Positions 20,300 through 59,389 of a stretch of 64,000 bases of DNA are shown here, piece by piece. The stretch is taken from assembly GCF_026965555.1 (NCBI RefSeq), contig NZ_CP114040.1, positions 7,316,001-7,380,000 of the forward strand. Direction: 5' to 3'. The stretch is from Nannocystis punicea. GTDB lineage: Bacteria > Myxococcota_A > Polyangia > Nannocystales > Nannocystaceae. The notes below the pieces were generated by a model. That model searched no databases and was not told the DNA's origin. It saw only the letters and a program-made list of their open reading frames with translations. Position 1 is the first letter of the stretch. Each line of letters starts with the position of its first letter. Made by a program: the position numbers and the translations under genes.

Positions 20300-20369
20300 G
20301 ACACCGTCCCGACATGTCCGATGATCCATGTCCCAACGACCATGACCCCATGACCATGTCTCAAGGAGC
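20300..20369. repeat. Run of dispersed repeat half-sites before a lipoprotein gene
   Basis: CGACATGTCCGATGATCCATG, GTCCCAACGACCATGACC, CCATGACCATGTCTCAAGG. Five CATG half-sites spaced 10-17 bases apart end at the ribosome-binding AAGGAG of the next gene. Confidence 0.55.
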
Positions 20370-21815
20370 ATGACCGTGAAGACACCCCCCCTGTCCCTCG
20401 CGTCAACCCTCCTCCTCGCGGCCGCCTGCTTCAACCCGTCGGGCAGCGACCCGACCACCGGCACCACCGCCACCGGCGGCCCGGCCACGAGCGACGGCCC
20501 CGGCGGCCCCGGGTCCACGGCCAGCGGCGAGGGCGACACCCTCAGCAGCGGCGCGCCGACCTCCGGCGAGCCGGTCACCACCACCGCGGCCACCGGCGAC
20601 ACCTCGAGCGGCACCGGCACCACCGGCGAGCCCTGCGACGCCGACGTGTGCCCCTGCGACAGCGCGACCGAGTGCGCGGCCGGCCAGCAGTGCCTCGACG
20701 GCGCGTGCGTCGAGTGCATCGACAGCACCACCTGCAACGGCCGCGTGTGCGACCCGATCGCCCACGTCTGCCGCGACTGTCGCGAGCACTCCGAGTGCCC
20801 GAAGACCGCCTGCGAGCTCGACGACGGGGTCTGCTTCCCGGTCGTCGCCACCAGCCACGCCCACGTCGACCCCGGCCTCACCTGCGGCGATCAGCCCTGC
20901 ACCGCCGACCAGCCGTGCTGCTCGATCGGCCAGGCGATGACCCAGTACATCGACGCCAGCCACCTCGTCGTCCACCTCGGCCCCGGGACCTACATGAGCG
21001 GCGTCAGGCTCGTCGAGGGCGGGCGCAAGGTCGCCGTCCTCGGCAGCGAGCTCACCGTCTTCGAGGTCAGCGGCGAACCGGCCGTCCGCCTCGGCGACGA
21101 GATGCAGGCCGACGCCATCGACAGCGAGCTCTACGTCGCGGACATCCGCATCGAGGGCGGGACGGGCGAGGCCGCGATCCGCTGCAAGTCCGCCGCCCAG
21201 CTGTGGCTCGACGACGTCCGGATCGAGAGCTACGTCGGCCGCGCCATCTCGACCTCCGAGTGCGTCGCCATGGTCCGCCGCAGCGAGCTCGCGCTCAACG
21301 TCCACGCCATCGCCATCGACCAGGGCAGCACGCTGCAGCTGGAGAACACCCTCGTCGCCCACTACAACATGGGCGCCGCGCTCGAGGTCGGCGTCACCAG
21401 CGGCGCGCACCTGCTCTACACCACCCTCGGCGACGCCACCCAGCACGCCGCCGGCCTGTTCGCCTGCGTCGACGGCACCGCCATGCTCAGCGCCCGCAAC
21501 TCGGCCCTGCTCAGCCACGGCCTCGGCGGCACCTTCAGCTGCGCCTCCAGCTCGCTCCAGCTCACCGACTCCGTCGTCAGCGACTCGACGCTCGAGAACG
21601 TCGACACCAACGTCGCGGTCATCCAGCCGCAGCAGGTCGCGCCGCTGTTCCAGGGCTGGGGCGGCGGCGACCTGCACGTGCTCGGCGACGGCGGCCTCCT
21701 GGCCGGCAAGGCCCGCTGGAAGCAGGGCGACCCGGGGACCGACGTCGACGGCGATCCGCGACCGATGATGGACGGCGCGCCCGACGTCGCCGGCGGCGAC
21801 CGTCCCCCGGGTTGA
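20370..21815 (+). CDS. Secreted lipoprotein with Thr/Gly linker, Cys-rich module and beta-helix-like domain
   Basis: 481 aa. Signal and lipobox LLLAAAC (Cys20), then a Thr/Gly/Ser linker to about residue 85. A Cys-rich stretch follows (DVCPCDSATECAAGQQC, CIDSTTCNGRVCDPIAHVC; about 12 Cys, EGF/dickkopf-like spacing), then TCGDQPCTADQPCCSI. From about 190 to 430 comes a right-handed parallel beta-helix-like region (VHLGPGTYMSGVRL, LWLDDVRIESYVGRAI, LQLENTLVAHYNMGAALEV). The C terminus has DVDGDPRPMMDGAPDVAG. GTG 20376 is a later alternative start to ATG 20370. Surface adhesion or carbohydrate binding is possible; function unknown. Confidence 0.85.
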   Translation: MTVKTPPLSLASTLLLAAACFNPSGSDPTTGTTATGGPATSDGPGGPGSTASGEGDTLSSGAPTSGEPVTTTAATGDTSSGTGTTGEPCDADVCPCDSATECAAGQQCLDGACVECIDSTTCNGRVCDPIAHVCRDCREHSECPKTACELDDGVCFPVVATSHAHVDPGLTCGDQPCTADQPCCSIGQAMTQYIDASHLVVHLGPGTYMSGVRLVEGGRKVAVLGSELTVFEVSGEPAVRLGDEMQADAIDSELYVADIRIEGGTGEAAIRCKSAAQLWLDDVRIESYVGRAISTSECVAMVRRSELALNVHAIAIDQGSTLQLENTLVAHYNMGAALEVGVTSGAHLLYTTLGDATQHAAGLFACVDGTAMLSARNSALLSHGLGGTFSCASSSLQLTDSVVSDSTLENVDTNVAVIQPQQVAPLFQGWGGGDLHVLGDGGLLAGKARWKQGDPGTDVDGDPRPMMDGAPDVAGGDRPPG

Positions 21816-21946: not shown

Positions 21947-22043
21947 ATTGCAATTGCAGTCGGCTGACAACAGCGACTCGAGTGCGAGAGCGGTCCGCTC
22001 GCTTGACGGCCTCGGCCGGGATCTTTTAGTCGTTCGATCCCGG
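21947..22043 (+). promoter_or_regulatory. Control region of the TonB receptor gene
   Basis: TGCAATTGCA (21949-21958) is a perfect palindrome. TTGACG (22003-22008) and TTTAGT (22025-22030) could be -35/-10 with a 16-base spacer. CCGGGATC (22016-22023) and GATCCCGG (22036-22043) are 8-bp inverted arms that enclose the -10 and touch the GTG start. Together they look like a repressible promoter. Confidence 0.45.
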
Positions 22044-24664
22044 TGCCACGCGCTCGCGCCACGCTCTGCACCTGCCTCGCGGCGTGCCTGTGGGCCTCGC
22101 CGGGCCGGGCCGCGCCCGCGGTCGTCCCGCCGAGCCCCCGGACCCAGGTCGACGCCGTCTATCCGCTCGCCGAGGCGCGCAGCGAGACCGTCGCCGTCGA
22201 GCTCGCGGTCACCGTCGAGGTCGACGGGCGGGTCGGCGCGGTCGAGGTGCTGAAGAGCGGCGGCGCGGCCTTCGACGACGCCGCCGTGGCCGCCGTCCGG
22301 CAGTGGCGGTTCGAGCCGGCCCGCCGCGGCGCCGAGGCAGTGGCCGTCAAGATCCGCGTGCCCTTCAGCTTCGCCCCGCCGGCCCAGCCGGCCGAGGCCC
22401 CCGCGGCCGGCGGACCTGCCCCTTCGGCCAGCCCCGAGCAACCCGGTCCTGCGGCCAGCGAGCCTGCCCCTTCGACCAGCCCGGAACAACCTGCCCCTTC
22501 GACCAGCCAACCGGTCCCTTCGACCAGCCAACCGGCCCCTTCGACCAGCCAGCCGCCCGGCGCGCCACCTGCCCCTTCGGCCAGCCAGCCCGAGCCGGTG
22601 CTCGACGTCGCCGCGCGCAGCCGCCGGCCGCCGCCGCGGGCCGCCAGCGACTTCGTGGTCGAGCGCGACGTCCTGGCCGCCCCGCCGCGGCAGAGCGCCG
22701 CCGACATGCTGAGCAGCGCCCCCGGCGTCTACGTCGCGCGGGCCGAGGGCGAGGCCGTCGCTCACGAGATCACCCTGCGCGGCTTCAACGCCGCGCACGG
22801 CCAGGACATCGAGATCACCGCCGGCGCCCTGCCGCTCAACCAGGTCTCGCACCTGCACGGCCAGGGCTACGCCGACCTCAACTGGATCGTCCCCGAGACG
22901 GTGCGATCGATCCGCGTCACCGAGGGCGTCTACGACCCGCGGCAGGGCGACTTCGCGGTCGCCGGCAGCATCGACTTCGACCTCGCCGTCCCGCGCCGCG
23001 GCATCCAGCTGCGCAGCACCGGCGGCTCGTTCGCCACCTTCCGCCAGCTCGTCCTGTGGGCGCCCAAGGGCCAGGAGGACGAGACCTTCGCCGCCGCCGC
23101 CGTCCGCCGCACCCGCGGCTTCGGCATGAACCGCGGCGGCCTCTCGGGCATGGCCATGGGGCAGTTCGCCTTCTCGGCCGCGGGCGGCTGGCGCGGCAAG
23201 ATCCACGTCGCCGCCTACGCCGCCCGGGCCGGGCTCGCCGGCGTCCTGCGCCGCGACGACGTCGCCGCCAGCGTCGTCGGCTTCTACGACAGCTACGGCG
23301 ACCCCTCGGCCAACAGCCAGTCGGCCTCGGCCGCGCGCGGCCACCTCTCTCTCGAGCTCGAGCGTCGCGGCGAGCGCGGGGCCGTCACGCGCATGGCCGT
23401 GTGGACCGCCCTGGTCGACTTCCACAGCCGCGAGAACTTCACCGGCTACACCCAGCGCGGCGTCGTCATGCCCGAGTGGGTCGGCCGCGGCGACCTCATC
23501 GAGCAGCAGAACCGCGACTTCGGCGGCGGCATGCGCCTGTCCCATCGGACAGCCGGCTGGCGACCCGCCGCGTGGTTCAACGCCGCCCTCGAGGTCGGCG
23601 CCTCCGCCCGGATCCACAACATCCAGCAGGCGCAGAACCTGCTGCAGGCCCCGCAGAACGAGACCTGGGACCGGCGCGTCGACGCCACCGTCCTCGCCAG
23701 CGACGTCGGCCTCTACGGCGACCTCGACCTCCGCCTCGGCAAGCGCGTCCGCCTTCGCGGCGGCGGTCGGGCCGACGTCCTCCACTACGACATCGACGAC
23801 CGCCTCGGCAACTTCATCGCCCCCTACCAGATCGAGAGCCACCTCGTCGGCCACCGCCGCACCGCCACCGGCGTGGCCGCCGGGCCGCGCGTCAGCCTCG
23901 AGGTCGCGCCTGTCCCCTGGGTCAGCCTGTTCGCCGCCTACGGCCAGGGCTACCGCTCGCCGCAGGCGCGCCAGCTCGACGAGGGCGAGCGGGCCCCGTT
24001 CGCCAAGGTCCACAGCACCGAGGGCGGCGTGCGCATGAGCCCCCTCGGCGGCCGCCTGCAGCTCAGCGCCGCCGGCTTCGCCACCTTCCTCTCGCAGGAC
24101 CTCGCCTTCGACCCCGAGGAGGGCCGGCTCGAGAAGGTCGGCCCGACCCGCCGGGCCGGCGCCGCCGTCCAGCTCGTCGCCCGCCCGCTGCCGTGGCTGG
24201 TCACCTCCGGCAGCGTCACCTACGTCCACGCCGTCCTGCGCGCCCCGCCGCCCGCGACCGCCGAGAACCCGTCCCCGCCGTACGTCCCCGGCCAGCTGCT
24301 GCCCTACGTCCCGCCGGTGGTCGTGCGCGCCGACGTCGGCCTCGACAAGGACCTCGTCGAGCTCAAGGGCCGCCCGCTCGGCCTGCGCGTCGGCCTCGGC
24401 TACTCGTACCTGTCTCCGCGGCCATTGCCCTACGGACAGTTCGCCGACCCGGTCCACCTCCTCGACGCCAGCGCCGCGGTGCGCTGGTCGGTCGTCGAGG
24501 TCGGCGTCGAGGCCTTCAACCTGCTCGCGCGCCGCTGGGCCGCCACCGAGTACAACTTCGTCTCCGACTGGGGCACCCGCCCCGTCCCCTCCCTCCTGCC
24601 CGCGCGCCACTTCGCCGCCGGCCCCCCGCTCAGCGTCATGGGCACCCTCACCCTCCACTTCTAG
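22043..24664 (+). CDS. TonB-dependent receptor with N-terminal TonB C-terminal-type domain
   Basis: 873 aa from GTG. Signal peptide (LCTCLAACLWASPGRAAP). Residues 35-110 form a TonB_C-like domain (VAVELAVTVEVDGRVGAVEV, AAVAAVRQWRFEPARR). A Pro/Ser linker (111-185) is built from tandem PAPSTSQP-like repeats of the dispersed DNA element. The plug follows (about 185-315: RQSAADMLSSAPGVYV, ITLRGFNAAHGQDIEITAGA), then a 22-strand-type barrel ending PPLSVMGTLTLHF. Receptors normally lack a TonB_C domain of their own. It should import a large or scarce nutrient, powered by the ExbB/ExbD/TonB genes downstream. Substrate unknown. Confidence 0.9.
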   Translation: MPRARATLCTCLAACLWASPGRAAPAVVPPSPRTQVDAVYPLAEARSETVAVELAVTVEVDGRVGAVEVLKSGGAAFDDAAVAAVRQWRFEPARRGAEAVAVKIRVPFSFAPPAQPAEAPAAGGPAPSASPEQPGPAASEPAPSTSPEQPAPSTSQPVPSTSQPAPSTSQPPGAPPAPSASQPEPVLDVAARSRRPPPRAASDFVVERDVLAAPPRQSAADMLSSAPGVYVARAEGEAVAHEITLRGFNAAHGQDIEITAGALPLNQVSHLHGQGYADLNWIVPETVRSIRVTEGVYDPRQGDFAVAGSIDFDLAVPRRGIQLRSTGGSFATFRQLVLWAPKGQEDETFAAAAVRRTRGFGMNRGGLSGMAMGQFAFSAAGGWRGKIHVAAYAARAGLAGVLRRDDVAASVVGFYDSYGDPSANSQSASAARGHLSLELERRGERGAVTRMAVWTALVDFHSRENFTGYTQRGVVMPEWVGRGDLIEQQNRDFGGGMRLSHRTAGWRPAAWFNAALEVGASARIHNIQQAQNLLQAPQNETWDRRVDATVLASDVGLYGDLDLRLGKRVRLRGGGRADVLHYDIDDRLGNFIAPYQIESHLVGHRRTATGVAAGPRVSLEVAPVPWVSLFAAYGQGYRSPQARQLDEGERAPFAKVHSTEGGVRMSPLGGRLQLSAAGFATFLSQDLAFDPEEGRLEKVGPTRRAGAAVQLVARPLPWLVTSGSVTYVHAVLRAPPPATAENPSPPYVPGQLLPYVPPVVVRADVGLDKDLVELKGRPLGLRVGLGYSYLSPRPLPYGQFADPVHLLDASAAVRWSVVEVGVEAFNLLARRWAATEYNFVSDWGTRPVPSLLPARHFAAGPPLSVMGTLTLHF

Positions 24665-24839
24665 CCGCCTGTCCCTTCACACCTGTCCCTTCGGACATCC
24701 ACCGCTCTCGACCGCGCCCGTCGCACTCGCCGACTGTTCCGCCGCTCGAACTCTCCTCCCCACGCCATACCCGCCACGCCCATCACCGCCCCCGCCGCCT
24801 GTCCCTCATACCTGTCCCTTCGCACCGGTCCCTTCACCC
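24665..24839. repeat. Intra-operon spacer made of dispersed repeat half-sites
   Basis: Contains GCCTGTCCCTTCACACCTGTC, CTTCGGACATCC, CCTGTCCCTCATACCTGTCC, and CCATGTCCCTCC reaching the next start codon. At least six TGTCCC half-sites lie within 175 bp. Confidence 0.6.
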
Positions 24840-25568
24840 ATGTCCCTCCGACCAGCCATCCTCCTGCTGCTCTGCGCCGCCTGCGGCGCCACCGGCGAGC
24901 CGGCCTTCCAGGCCCCGCTGCGGGCGCGGGGGGCCGCCTCGGAGCTGACCGCGGGCGCCTGGACCGTGAGCCTCGCGCGCGCCGAGGTCGGCCTCGGCCC
25001 GCTCTACCTGTGCGCCACCGCGGCGGCCTCCTCCGAGCTGTGCGCCACCGCGGCCGCCGAGTACGCCGCCGTCGCGACCGTCGACCTCACCGACCCCGAG
25101 CCGCAGCCGCTCGGCGAGCTCGACGTCCTGCCCGGCCAGGTCCGCTCGGCCATGCTCGACTACGGCGTGACCTGGCTCAAGACGCAGGCCAAGCCGAAGG
25201 CCCAGGACGGCGCGCCCGGCGGCCGCGCGGCCCGGTTCGCCGGCATGGCTGTCTCTTCGGACATGTCCTTCGAGTTCACCGCCGACCTCGACGTCGCCCC
25301 CGTGCTCCGCGGCAGCCGCACCCTCGAGGGCCTGCGGATCGGCCCGTTCTCGCTCGACGAGGGCGGCGCGCTCGACGTCACGGTCGACGGCGCCGCCTGG
25401 TGGGCCGGCGTCGACTTCGACGCCCTCGCCGCGCTCGGCCCCGGCCCGCACGACCTCACCGCCCTCGCCGCCGCCGATCCGGCCTCCCCGGCCGCCGACG
25501 CCCTCGCCGCCGTCCGCTTCGCCATGATCGCAGTCCCCCCGCGGTTCGCCTGGACCGCCGAGCAATGA
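24840..25568 (+). CDS. Lipoprotein of the TonB locus, unknown function
   Basis: 242 aa, not recognised. Lipobox LLLLCAAC (Cys15), with a second candidate Cys12. Mature chain begins with beta-strand pattern (ELTAGAWTVSLARAEVGLGPLYLC), a Cys pair region (LYLCATAAASSELCATAA), AMLDYGVTWLKTQAKPK in the middle and LRIGPFSLDEGG, FAMIAVPPRFAW at the end. Between receptor and exbB with 4 bases to exbB, so part of the uptake operon; perhaps it binds the substrate at the outer membrane. A repeat copy (CTGTCTCTTCGGACATG) is read in frame as AVSSDMS. The start codon ATG itself lies in a repeat half-site. Confidence 0.78.
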   Translation: MSLRPAILLLLCAACGATGEPAFQAPLRARGAASELTAGAWTVSLARAEVGLGPLYLCATAAASSELCATAAAEYAAVATVDLTDPEPQPLGELDVLPGQVRSAMLDYGVTWLKTQAKPKAQDGAPGGRAARFAGMAVSSDMSFEFTADLDVAPVLRGSRTLEGLRIGPFSLDEGGALDVTVDGAAWWAGVDFDALAALGPGPHDLTALAAADPASPAADALAAVRFAMIAVPPRFAWTAEQ

Positions 25569-25572
25569 TCCC

Positions 25573-26262
25573 ATGACCCCGATCGACGCCCTCCAGCAGC
25601 TCTTCCTCCGCGCCGGCGCCGGCTGGGTGCTGTGGCTGCTCGGCCTGCTCTCGCTCGTCAGCGTCGCCCTCACCGTCGAGCGCTGGCTGGTCCTGCGCGC
25701 CCGCGGCGGCGACCTGCGCCTGCTCGCCGGCCGCGTCGGCGCCCTCCTGCACACCGGCGACCGCGACGGCGCCCTGCGCCTGCTCGCCGCCTCCCGCAGC
25801 GTCGCCGCGGCGATCGCCGCCGCCGGCCTGCGCCTCGCCGACCGCGGCCCCAAGGCCGCCGAGTACGCGATGCAGAGCGCCCTCGCGCTCGAGCGCGGCC
25901 AGCTCGAGCGCGGCCTTATCTTCCTCGGCACCCTCGGCAACAACGCCCCGTTCGTCGGCCTGCTCGGCACGGTCATCGGCGTCATCGCCGCCTTCGAGGA
26001 GCTCGGCCACGCCGCGCCCGGCCACGGCGGAGGCACCGGCGCCGCCTCCCAGGTCGCCTCCAACGCGGTCATGTCGAGCATCGCCGAGGCCCTGGTCGCC
26101 ACCGCCGTCGGCCTCCTGGTGGCCCTCCCCGCCGTCGCCGCCTACAACGCCTTCCAGCGCCGGATCACCTCCCTGTGCCAGGGCAGCGAGGCCCTGACCA
26201 ACCTCGTCCTCGCCTACATGGCCGATACGACAGGTCCCGAAGACCAGCCGGAGGCGCGCTGA
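25573..26262 (+). CDS. exbB: ExbB/TolQ/MotA-type proton channel
   Basis: Forms, with ExbD, the proton-driven motor for TonB. 229 aa with three TM helices: about 17-37 (WVLWLLGLLSLVSVALTVERW), 115-141 (FLGTLGNNAPFVGLLGTVIGVIAAF) and 170-195 (AEALVATAVGLLVALPAVAAYN). The GLLGTVIG and EALVATAVGL blocks are the family core. TGATG overlap with exbD. The tail (ADTTGPEDQPEAR) is encoded over a copy of the dispersed repeat. Confidence 0.92.
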   Translation: MTPIDALQQLFLRAGAGWVLWLLGLLSLVSVALTVERWLVLRARGGDLRLLAGRVGALLHTGDRDGALRLLAASRSVAAAIAAAGLRLADRGPKAAEYAMQSALALERGQLERGLIFLGTLGNNAPFVGLLGTVIGVIAAFEELGHAAPGHGGGTGAASQVASNAVMSSIAEALVATAVGLLVALPAVAAYNAFQRRITSLCQGSEALTNLVLAYMADTTGPEDQPEAR

Positions 26263-26696
26263 TGGCCGGCCACAGCTCCAGCGATCAGAACGGCCTCATC
26301 GTCGGCATCAACGTCACGCCGATGGTCGACGTCGTCCTGGTGCTGCTCATCATCTTCATCGTCACCGCCAAGATCATCGTCACCCCCGCGGTCGAGATGG
26401 ACCTGCCGGAGGCCAGCACCGCCGGCGAGGTCCAGGTCGTGCTCTCGGTCATCGTCCCCGAGCGCGGCGCCACCCTCGTCGACGGCGAGCCGATCGCCGG
26501 CGAAGACGAACTGGTCGCCCGCGCCACCGCCGTGCGCGCCCGCAGCCCCCAGGTCCGCGCGGTCATCCACGCCGACGGCGAGGTCCCCCATCGCCGCGTG
26601 ATCGCCACCATCGACGCCCTCCAGCGCGGCGGCGTCTACCGCGTCGCCTTCGCCACCCTGTCCCCTGCGCCGGGCCCCCAGGAGGCCGCGCCGTGA
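26262..26696 (+). CDS. exbD: ExbD/TolR biopolymer transport protein
   Basis: 144 aa single-pass partner of ExbB. INVTPMVDVVLVLLIIFIVTAKII carries the proton-conducting Asp23 in its only TM helix; the periplasmic part ends with VRAVIHADGEVPHRRVIATIDALQRGG, the usual C-terminal domain. The ATG is inside the exbB stop (TGATG). The TGA stop overlaps a GTG that opens a 246-codon repeat frame up to tonB. Confidence 0.92.
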   Translation: MAGHSSSDQNGLIVGINVTPMVDVVLVLLIIFIVTAKIIVTPAVEMDLPEASTAGEVQVVLSVIVPERGATLVDGEPIAGEDELVARATAVRARSPQVRAVIHADGEVPHRRVIATIDALQRGGVYRVAFATLSPAPGPQEAAP

Positions 26697-27433
26697 CCTG
26701 CCCGCCCGCCTCGACACGCCACGCGCCCCCGAGGCCCGCGCGCCACCTGTCCCTCGGGCCGGCCGCGCCCGCAACTCACCTGTCCCTCGGGTCACCTTCC
26801 CACGCCTCCGCGCATCGCCGGTCCCTCGCCTCATCTTCTCTCGCCCCCGCGCACCGCCGGCCCCTCGCCTCATCTTCTCTCGCCCCCGCGCACCGCCGGC
26901 CCCTCGCCTCATCTTCCCGCGCCCTCGCGCGCCACCTGTCCCTCGGGACAGCCGTAAACCCGCCCGCGCATCGCCTGCCCCTCGGCTCATTTTCCCTCGC
27001 CCTCGCGCGCCACCTGTCCCTCGGGCTAGCCGTCAACCCGCCCGCGCATCGCCTCGGCCCATTTTCCCGCGCCCTCGCGCGCCACCTGTCCCTCGGGCCA
27101 GCCGTCAACCCACCCGCGCATCGCCTCGGCCCATTTTCCCGCGCCCTCGCGCGTCACATGTCCCTCGGGCCAGCCGTCAACCCGCCCCCGCACCGCCTGC
27201 CCCTCGGCTCATTTTCCCGCGCCCTCGCGCGTCACCTGCCCCTCGGGCCAGCCGTCAACCCGCCCCCGCACCGCCGGCCCCTCGCCTCATTTTCCCTCGC
27301 CCTCGCGCGCCACATGTCCCTCAGGACAGCCATAAACGCGCCCTCCCGTCACCTGTCAATCCAGCCGTTCGCCGAGACGCTCCCCCGTCACCTGTCCCTC
27401 GGGCCAGCCTCGCCCACGGAGGTCCGCGCGTGA
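26693..27433 (+). repeat. Tandem repeat array between exbD and tonB, open as a 246-codon frame
   Basis: Units of 72 or 78 bp (copies of the core start near 26933, 27011, 27083, 27155, 27233, 27311) follow a 39-bp sub-array at about 26815-26925. Each long unit has the element CCTGTCCCTCGGGCCAGCC plus a constant CGTCAACCCGCCC block. All periods are multiples of 3, so one frame stays open, reading ARHLSLGPAVNPPAHRL again and again. That frame begins with GTGA overlap on exbD and ends with GTGA overlap on tonB. A protein so rich in His/Arg/Pro/Leu without known fold could be real, or could be a translatable spacer. No recognised domain. Confidence 0.6.
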
Positions 27434-28266
27434 CCCGTCCGGGCATCGCCGCACAGGTGTTCGCCGCCGCCGCGCCGCCGGCCTCGCGGCGGCACCACGC
27501 GATCATCGTCGCAGTCCTCCTGCACCTCGGCGTCGCGGTCCTGATCTTGCGGGCCCAGCCGACGCTCGAGACCTGGAGCGCCACCATGGCCGCGCGCGTG
27601 CACGACGAGCTGACCCGCCTGCAGCTGGCCGACGTCGAGCGCACCGAGCCGCCCCCGCCCCCGCCCGAAGAGCCGCCCCCGCCCGAGCCCCCGCAGGCCG
27701 CCAGCGAGCCTGCGCCCGCCGTCGCCACCGCCCCGCCCGCCCCCGCGCGACCGGCCCGACCGACGCCCGCGCGCGCGGGTCGAGTCGTCGCCGCGCCCCC
27801 CGGAGCCCTCGACCTCACCGGCGACGTCGTCGTCGTCGGCAGCGCCAGCGCCTACGTCGGCGGCGCCACCAGCTCGACCGGCACCGGCACCAAACCTGTC
27901 CCGAACGCCAGCTCCCAGCCGGCCTCGCCCCCGGCCCCGGCCCCGACGAGCCCGCCTGCTCCGCCTCCGCCCGCCGACGATCGCTCGCGCCCGGTCGCCC
28001 TCGCCAGCGAGGAATGGAACTGCCCGTGGCCGGCCGAGGCCGAGGGCCTCGCGCTCGACGAGCAGATCGCAGTCATCCGCGTCCTCGTCGACGCCCGCGG
28101 CGTCGTCGAGTCGTCCGAGCTCGTCGCCGACCCGGGCGACGGCTTCGGCGCCGCCGCCCTCGCCTGCGCCCGCCGGACCCGCTTCACCCCCGCCCTGGAC
28201 CGCGACGGCCGCCCAGTCCGCGCCCGCTCGCCCGCCATCCGCGTCCACTTCACGCGCAACCCCTGA
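27430..28266 (+). CDS. tonB: TonB energy transducer
   Basis: 278 aa from GTG 27430. Cytoplasmic N terminus, one TM helix with the functional His (HHAIIVAVLLHLGVAVLIL, about 22-40), Pro-rich periplasm-spanning stretch (PPPPPPEEPPPPEPP), a Ser/Thr/Pro linker including a dispersed repeat copy (KPVPNAS), and the TonB_C domain (about 195-278: EQIAVIRVLVDARGVVESSEL, ALACARRTRFTPALDRDG). Transfers energy from ExbB/ExbD to the receptor of this operon. Confidence 0.88.
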   Translation: MTRPGIAAQVFAAAAPPASRRHHAIIVAVLLHLGVAVLILRAQPTLETWSATMAARVHDELTRLQLADVERTEPPPPPPEEPPPPEPPQAASEPAPAVATAPPAPARPARPTPARAGRVVAAPPGALDLTGDVVVVGSASAYVGGATSSTGTGTKPVPNASSQPASPPAPAPTSPPAPPPPADDRSRPVALASEEWNCPWPAEAEGLALDEQIAVIRVLVDARGVVESSELVADPGDGFGAAALACARRTRFTPALDRDGRPVRARSPAIRVHFTRNP

Positions 28267-44803: not shown

Positions 44804-44900
44804 TCGGCCGCGGCTGCGCGCCCGCCCGGCGTCCCCAGCGACTCCGGGCGGTTTCGTCGCGACCGCACGTCGAGCCCGACGCGCCGTAACCGTCGCTCAC

Positions 44901-45035
44901 CTGTCCCCAAGCACAGGCGCCGAGGCGCCGCCGTTCGATCTGTCCCCAAGTACAGGCGACCAGGCGCCGCCGTTCGACCTGTCCCCAAGTACAGGCGTCC
45001 AGGCGCCGCCGCATCACCTGCCCATCAGGACAGCC
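44901..45035. repeat. 39-bp tandem repeat array built on the dispersed element
   Basis: Three full units (44901-44939, 44940-44978, 44979-45017) and a partial fourth. Each opens with CTGTCCCCAAGTACAGGCG, with the CCTGT/ACAGG arms able to pair, and carries AGGCGCCGCCGTTCGA. The last partial unit reads CCTGCCCATCAGGACAGCC. Non-coding as far as can be seen. Confidence 0.75.
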
Positions 45036-58375: not shown

Positions 58376-59182
58376 GTGCCCGAGCCGGACCCAGCCTCGC
58401 ACATCGAAGCCCGCGGCCTCGGCGTGCGCTTCCCTGGCGGCGTGCAGGCCCTGAGCGGCCTCGACCTGGTCGTCCGCCGCGGCGAGCTGCTGGTCGTCAT
58501 CGGCCCCTCGGGCTGCGGCAAGTCGACGTTCCTGCGCGTCGCGGCCGGACTCGCGCCCGCCAGCGAGGGCACCCTCACCGTCGCCGGCGAGGCCCCCGAG
58601 CGGGTCCGGGCCCGCCGCGCCGTCGCCTTCGTGTTTCAGGACCCGACCCTGCTCCCGTGGCGCAGCCTGCACGCCAACGTCCGGCTCCCGCTCGAGCTCG
58701 CGCGCGTCCCGTCGGCCGAGCAGAACCTCGCCGCCGACGCCGCGCTCGCGCTCGTCGGCCTGTCGGAGTTCGCCGCCGCCGGCCCGGCCGCGCTCTCGGG
58801 CGGCATGAAGATGCGCGCCTCGCTGGCCCGCGCCCTCGTCACCCGCCCCGAGCTGCTCCTCCTCGACGAGCCGTTCGGCGCCCTCGACGAGCTCACCCGC
58901 GAGCGCCTCAACGACGAGCTGCTGCGGCTGTGGGAGCGCGACCGCTTCACCGCCGTCGCGGTCACCCACAGCGTCGCCGAGGCCGTCCTGCTCGGCGACC
59001 GCGTCGTCGTCCTCTCGGCCCGCCCCGGCCGGATCGTCGCCGACATCCCCGTCCCGCTGCCGCGCCCGCGCCGGGCCGCCCTGGTCGGCGCCCCCGAGTT
59101 CGCCGCCGTCGCCGCCGAGGTCCGCGCCCGCCTCCGCGCCGCCGCCCCGCCTGACCCATCGGACCTGTCCGTTCGCACCTGA
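58376..59182 (+). CDS. ABC transporter ATPase (SsuB/TauB/NrtD type)
   Basis: 268 aa from GTG 58376. Walker A GPSGCGKST (43-51), Q-loop VFQDPTLLPWRSLHANV (the LLPW signature of nitrate/sulfonate/taurine importers), signature LSGGMKMRASLARALV, Walker B LLLLDEPFGALDELT, H-loop VTHSVAEAVLLGDRV. Energises import with the permease 207 bp downstream. The last residues (PPDPSDLSVRT) lie in the dispersed repeat. No sulfonate-specific site can be read from this subunit. Confidence 0.9.
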   Translation: MPEPDPASHIEARGLGVRFPGGVQALSGLDLVVRRGELLVVIGPSGCGKSTFLRVAAGLAPASEGTLTVAGEAPERVRARRAVAFVFQDPTLLPWRSLHANVRLPLELARVPSAEQNLAADAALALVGLSEFAAAGPAALSGGMKMRASLARALVTRPELLLLDEPFGALDELTRERLNDELLRLWERDRFTAVAVTHSVAEAVLLGDRVVVLSARPGRIVADIPVPLPRPRRAALVGAPEFAAVAAEVRARLRAAAPPDPSDLSVRT

Positions 59183-59389
59183 CCGTTCCGCCCTGGTCGT
59201 TCGAACCTGTCCGTTCGAACCTGTCCTTTCGCCCCGTTCGCCCCTCGCCCTCCTCCCGCGCTTCCCTCCTGTCCGTTCGCACCTGTCCCCTCGCTCCGTT
59301 CGCCCCTCGCCCTCCTCCCGCGCTTCCTTCCTGTCCGTTCGCACCTGTCCCTTCGCCCCGTTCGCCCCTCGCCTCCGCACCTCTCGCGC
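59183..59389. repeat. 62-bp tandem repeat array inside the ABC operon
   Basis: Units at 59206-59267, 59268-59329 and a partial third to about 59373. Each has CCTGTCCGTTCG, CACCTGTCCC and CCCCTCGCCCTCCTCCCGCG. It separates ATPase and permease, which are normally a few bases apart. Non-coding. Confidence 0.7.

Follow-up and report, generated by a model that had tools for sequence, protein, structure and literature searches.

A repeat-derived open reading frame as a putative translated spacer between exbD and tonB in Nannocystis

The closest described system is translational coupling in which ribosomes terminate and reinitiate at overlaps of 4 nt (Huber et al. 2019, PMC6728339, and 2023, PMC10666635; Brown and Wade 2025, PMC12548453). 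Its traits, namely NTGA overlaps, a Shine-Dalgarno sequence before the downstream start, partnership in one membrane complex and, on the reading proposed below, strong dependence on short distance, are shared by the exbD-tonB junction of Nannocystis punicea described here. The Nannocystis junction differs from such pairs in that two serial overlaps, linked by an ORF of repeat origin that has no evident protein function, appear to replace a single ancestral overlap. In coupled pairs a gap of ~20 nt almost abolishes reinitiation, a distance of 38 nt reduced it by 80-100% in three E. coli pairs (PMC10666635), and untranslated RNA in bacteria becomes exposed to Rho (PMC12548453). Rickettsia palindromic elements (Ogata et al. 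2000, 2002, reviewed in PMC10969869) are likewise dispersed palindromes that occur in frame in coding DNA, as the Nannocystis element does inside tonB of one congener (G001), in gene linkers and at a further locus, L050. They are, however, ~150 bp long and specify a conserved peptide, whereas the Nannocystis element has a ~17-nt core and at exbD-tonB forms a separate ORF, not a fusion. Leaders of bicistronic designs (for example PMC5995908) similarly bring ribosomes to a downstream start by being translated, but they are engineered and short, whereas the putative spacer in Nannocystis is natural, 62-246 codons long and located between two structural genes. REP elements (PMC3733652) are also small high-copy palindromes, mostly intergenic with some in genes; they carry a GTAG or CGTC tag, while the core motif common to the Nannocystis copies compared has neither. 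No description of this element or of such a translated spacer was found in the open-licence literature searched.

Nannocystis is a soil bacterium, and the genome of N. punicea (G000) consists of a single contig of 13.2 Mb. The window, that is the whole stretch of 64,000 nt analysed here, has a G+C content of 73% and contains an operon in the order exbB, exbD, repeat ORF and tonB (Table 1). The end of exbB overlaps the start of exbD (TGATG), and the repeat ORF shares a GTGA with exbD at 26693-26696 and another with tonB at 27430-27433. The initial annotation had described an open frame of 246 codons filling the exbD-tonB gap, array periods that are all multiples of 3, and four-base overlaps with the flanking genes at both ends. 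All of this was borne out, as the frame runs from its GTG without a stop, the periods are 39, 78, 150, 24 and 33 (start-to-start distances 39, 72 and 78), and GTGA occurs twice. No alternative start codon was found in the tonB frame upstream of the tonB GTG. The ORF contains eight copies of the motif ACMTGTCC (26745, 26778, 26934, 27012, 27084, 27156, 27312 and 27390), the first and last of which fall just beyond the tandem part, and all eight read in frame as CAC MTG TCC. The repeat peptides spelled by the ORF include HLSLGPAVNPPAHR, and the repeat peptide HLSLG corresponds to CAC CTG TCC CTC GGG, the element read in one frame.

Table 1. Features of the exbD-tonB junction in N. punicea and of a further repeat-bearing gene (window positions, except for the last row)
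Feature	Position	Strand	Basis
exbB (MotA/TolQ/ExbB proton channel)	25573-26262	+	ORF; Pfam MotA_ExbB 7e-28
exbD	26262-26696	+	ORF; Pfam ExbD 4.1e-25
Left junction GGAGG-N7-GTGA, exbD stop/spacer ORF start	26681-26696	+	sequence
Putative spacer ORF, GTG start, 246 codons, repeat-derived, joining exbD to tonB	26693-27433	+	stop-free
Tandem array, periods 39/78/72/150	26777-27343	+	repeats inside spacer ORF
Right junction GGAGG-N7-GTGA, spacer stop/tonB start	27418-27433	+	sequence; conserved in G003, G004, G006
tonB	27430-28266	+	Pfam TonB_C 5.6e-6; orthologues start at same residue
998-aa ORF at L050	5611-8607; G000:C1:2025610-2028606	-	element repeats (TCPSGH...) make up the first ~600 codons

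The window contains 46 copies of ACMTGTCC, where 2.2 would be expected. The palindrome ACMTGTCC-N(3-6)-GGACA gave 1,183 matches in the N. punicea genome, 196-1,369 in each of the other Nannocystis genomes and 0-40 in other members of the family, with 0-5 matches to the reversed-pattern control in any genome and 0-2 in those of Nannocystis. The core of ~17 nt (ACMTGTCC-N4-GGACA) has a constant stem, and the loop and flanks are variable. As the palindrome is abundant across Nannocystis genomes, the array between exbD and tonB is a locally amplified form of a genus-wide element. Other element arrays lie in the window, for example at 20321-20375, 44899-45011 and 59150-59373. Outside translated regions, element arrays have periods such as 14, 28, 56 and 62, and copies inside genes keep the frame of the host gene, as seen in tonB of G001, in gene B at L050 (5/6 species) and in linkers of called genes.

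The closest named relatives are Nannocystis strain RBIL2 (G003), N. pusilla Na p29 (G004), N. pusilla DSM 53165 (G002) and N. bainbridge BB15-2 (G006), and tonB orthologues are 86-88% identical in the four congeners. DSM 53165 carries no insert, and its exbD and tonB overlap directly by GTGA. Because a direct GTGA overlap of the two genes is also seen outside the genus (G019, G037 and G047, at loci L029, L028 and L027, respectively), it is likely to be the ancestral state. The inserts measure 62 codons in BB15-2, 89 in RBIL2, 98 in Na p29 and 246 in N. punicea, all open from GTGA to GTGA, and in each of these species the spacing from one GTGA to the other leaves a remainder of 2 on division by 3, as a double overlap requires. 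The initial annotation had named array length modulo three and retention of both overlaps as the comparison to be made in relatives; in BB15-2, RBIL2 and Na p29 the frame is open and both GTGA are kept, so that the 4-nt stop/start overlap of coupled pairs is present at both ends in N. punicea and in these three relatives. GGAGG-N7, the Shine-Dalgarno layout of coupled pairs, precedes both GTGA in the four species, and the left-junction layout, the same in the three insert-bearing relatives, is in DSM 53165 the start of tonB itself. N. punicea raised the question, and the independent cases are RBIL2, Na p29 and BB15-2, with homologous inserts in the first two; given few species and shared ancestry, the independent evolutionary events number perhaps three or four. 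The unrooted tree fits equally one gain with a loss in DSM 53165, or one gain after DSM 53165 had split off. The Na p29 assembly has the lowest coding density and several truncated orthologues (loci L075-L094); its broken genes are probably sequencing frameshifts, and its frames should be treated with care.

Openness of the ORF in N. punicea is by itself a weak argument for translation, because the array is stop-free in forward frame 2 as well, 13% of its mononucleotide shuffles are open, and so are 19% of the frames in other tandem gaps that carry the element and measure 600-900 nt. The openness is partly a by-product of the C-rich, stop-poor element, and it is the relatives that provide evidence beyond chance. 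The main rival of a translated spacer is neutral insertion of repeat DNA, in which a stop-poor element expands between genes, phase and overlaps reflect coincidence and common descent, and tonB uses its own Shine-Dalgarno sequence. We regard this as possible but rather unlikely. It is in keeping with the 19-47% of frames that are open in element gaps, with the lack of a coding signature in the ORF, and with the divergence between the inserts of RBIL2 and Na p29 (64 of 264 aligned sites, 24%), which is typical of element gaps (4-37%). It does not predict that all four insert lengths share one residue class modulo 3, nor that the three indels between the RBIL2 and Na p29 inserts, placed by an alignment blind to codons, are all in frame (30, 6 and 3 nt). 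The indels are supportive only, because multiples of three also make up 70 of the 124 indels of at least 3 nt in other gaps (70/234 of all indels there).

The phase of the elements also speaks against neutral insertion. In five 400-kb blocks with called genes, which served as the comparison set, sense-strand element spacings in other tandem gaps were distributed 62/77/113 among the classes 0/1/2 modulo 3 (62/252 in phase, 25%), and all spacings were in phase in only 2/109 of the other gaps with at least four elements. In the exbD-tonB inserts, by contrast, 15/15 spacings are multiples of 3: 7/7 in N. punicea (33, 156, 78, 72, 72, 156 and 78) and 8/8 in RBIL2, Na p29 and BB15-2 together (45, 84, 81; 45, 114, 75; and 33, 78 in the three inserts). 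Amplification of a single unit does not explain the phase, because the spacings are not multiples of one unit length. The probability of 8/8 is 0.246^8, ~1e-5, before allowing for shared descent, and p-values that treat the spacings as independent overstate the case.

The initial annotation had also raised the possibility of a new His/Arg/Pro-rich protein. A His/Arg/Pro/Ser-rich product with its own function, perhaps linked to the Ton complex, is most unlikely. The one result in its favour is the pN/pS between RBIL2 and Na p29, which is 0.67 in the ORF frame (substitutions at codon positions 1/2/3, 18/19/27) and 1.1-1.2 in the other frames, with a noncoding median of 0.95; the value of 0.67 lies around the bottom 4% of the distribution for frames from comparable noncoding gaps. 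On the other side, under a 3-periodic coding model, which finds the neighbouring genes at the starts given in Table 1, the ORF scored -53 in its reading frame; the other frames were all negative too, and the inserts of the three relatives scored -30, -32 and -15, whereas called genes had a median of +0.093 per nt. The codon usage of the ORF is accordingly not that of an ordinary protein-coding gene, and it generated no Pfam family match. The peptide is what a genome-wide DNA element spells in one frame, the 62-246 residues share only element-derived motifs, and the product is absent in DSM 53165. Little else can be aligned across species, and the comparison indicates that in these inserts the frame is kept and the sequence hardly. 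A phage-derived protein was also looked for in the ORF, and none was found.

The preferred reading, to which we give a probability of about 60%, is that the array is a translated spacer between exbD and tonB. The initial annotation had suggested a spacer whose translation keeps ribosomes travelling between exbD and tonB through a hairpin-rich array. The spacer part is supported by the open frames and retained overlaps in three relatives with inserts of other lengths, despite poor sequence conservation; the hairpin part was not upheld, with a fold z-score of 0.22 relative to shuffled sequence. The array matched no known RNA family, and consensus searches located no internal promoter (sigma-70-type only) or terminator in it. 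We also considered that the array hides the tonB Shine-Dalgarno sequence. The site was predicted to be mostly paired whether or not the array is present, and predicted access to the tonB start was no lower, beyond scatter, than with shuffled upstream sequence; on this modelling the array does not specifically hide the tonB start.

That an open block lies at this junction in every carrier species suggests that ribosomes must cross it to make TonB. From the sequences compared we infer that the spacer is translated, that its translation is selected for, that tonB depends on it and that it arose by duplication. Ancestrally, exbD and tonB would have been translationally coupled through their GTGA overlap. 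DNA carrying ACMTGTCC-N4-GGACA would then have inserted at the junction in Nannocystis, probably duplicating the initiation region (GGAGG-N7-GTGACCCG) so that one start coincides with the end of exbD and another opens tonB; the sequence GGAGG-N7-GTGACYCG, common to the left and right junctions in RBIL2, Na p29 and BB15-2, fits such a duplication of the tonB initiation region. A ribosome finishing exbD would restart at the first GTGA, read through the array as far as the second GTGA, stop there and begin again on tonB. Since reinitiation drops steeply with distance (PMC10666635), an insert of 181-733 nt would uncouple tonB if untranslated, and a bridging ORF with NTGA at each end would restore the stop-restart path. 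The insert could drift and vary in length freely, and changes that break the path would be lost because coupling fails across untranslated gaps of tens of nucleotides; repeat DNA would thus be tolerated only while ribosomes cross it via a stop and restart at each end. As a caveat to coupling, tonB is preceded by a GGAGG of its own, from which it might be initiated uncoupled.

Each stop-restart step should lose ribosomes. A translated spacer could on that ground be a length-tunable attenuator, its length setting how many ribosomes reach tonB and lowering TonB relative to ExbD, and spacer length does range from 0 to 246 codons among congeners. Nothing links length to expression in these few species, and there is no sign of any length being kept; we consider a role of this kind very unlikely. 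If the spacer is translated as proposed, the locus shows, as a natural experiment, how close the coupling of adjacent genes has to be, with up to 733 nt of repeat DNA accepted between partner genes while readable, and it would represent a class of ORFs conserved in frame and not in protein sequence, which annotation pipelines would miss or mistake for genes. The natural variants (0, 62, 89, 98 and 246 codons) would then be suited to measuring ribosome loss and polarity at operon junctions.

Among 249 element gaps, bridging from NTGA to NTGA is confined to three gaps in BB15-2 and the four inserts at exbD-tonB. A genome-wide rule that every element gap is bridged was rejected, as most of the 249 are unbridged, and the occupation of many unbridged gaps by the same element is what neutral insertion would lead one to expect. 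Where element gaps of at least 150 nt have coupling-type ends, 2/17 are bridged compared with 3/3 exbD-tonB inserts (N. punicea left out; Fisher 0.009), and a further 400 kb yielded no additional bridged element gap, the 2/17 and the follow-up zero being manual tallies from gap tables. In BB15-2, gap group 40/41 is a chance bridge that relatives do not keep, and the bridged gap 132632 has no orthologous gene pair for comparison. Coupled pairs with any gained insert in the five 400-kb blocks were otherwise mostly misplaced starts or broken genes of Na p29.

Two parallel cases speak against neutral insertion. In G001, a fragmented assembly, exbD and tonB overlap by ATGA, and degenerate elements lie in frame in the first ~35 codons of tonB. 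The genes treX and treZ overlap by 11 nt in N. punicea, RBIL2, Na p29 and G005, and in BB15-2 (L164, G006:C3:381325) an element-bearing insert separates them and is spanned by an ORF of 24 codons that has ATGA at each end; it looks as if the element-like start region of treZ had been duplicated in tandem. A wider rule for Nannocystis, that the element invades coupled overlaps only if it is still translated, as a bridge or as an in-frame N-terminal extension, with ribosome traffic filtering the repeats and spacer length tuning the downstream gene, is conjectural and in our judgement improbable. The gap between tonB and the next gene, which was not an ancestral overlap, has likewise acquired elements; in line with the spacer reading, no ORF bridges it, and its length, 49 versus 48 nt, is not conserved modulo three.

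The exbD-tonB inserts are C-rich and G-poor, ranking 8, 16, 23 and 27 among 433 tandem gaps, which would suit rut-like RNA in need of cover. Shielding from Rho stays a side idea, because the equally skewed 175-nt operon gap before 24840 has no coupled bridging ORF. The small gene that follows this gap (24840-25568) has its start codon within an element copy at 24838-24850 (CCATGTCCCTCCGACC). Further upstream, 22043-24664 encodes a TonB-dependent receptor that has a TonB_C domain of its own at the N terminus (Pfam 1.4e-13) and, after it, a proline-rich linker in which repeats at 22397-22555 (periods 48 and 21) resemble the element in frame. At L050, gene B starts inside the last codons of the upstream gene, and in 5/6 species, the exception being Na p29, it carries in-frame element repeats before its first hydrophobic segment, the stretch ranging from ~20 codons in DSM 53165 to ~600 in N. 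punicea.
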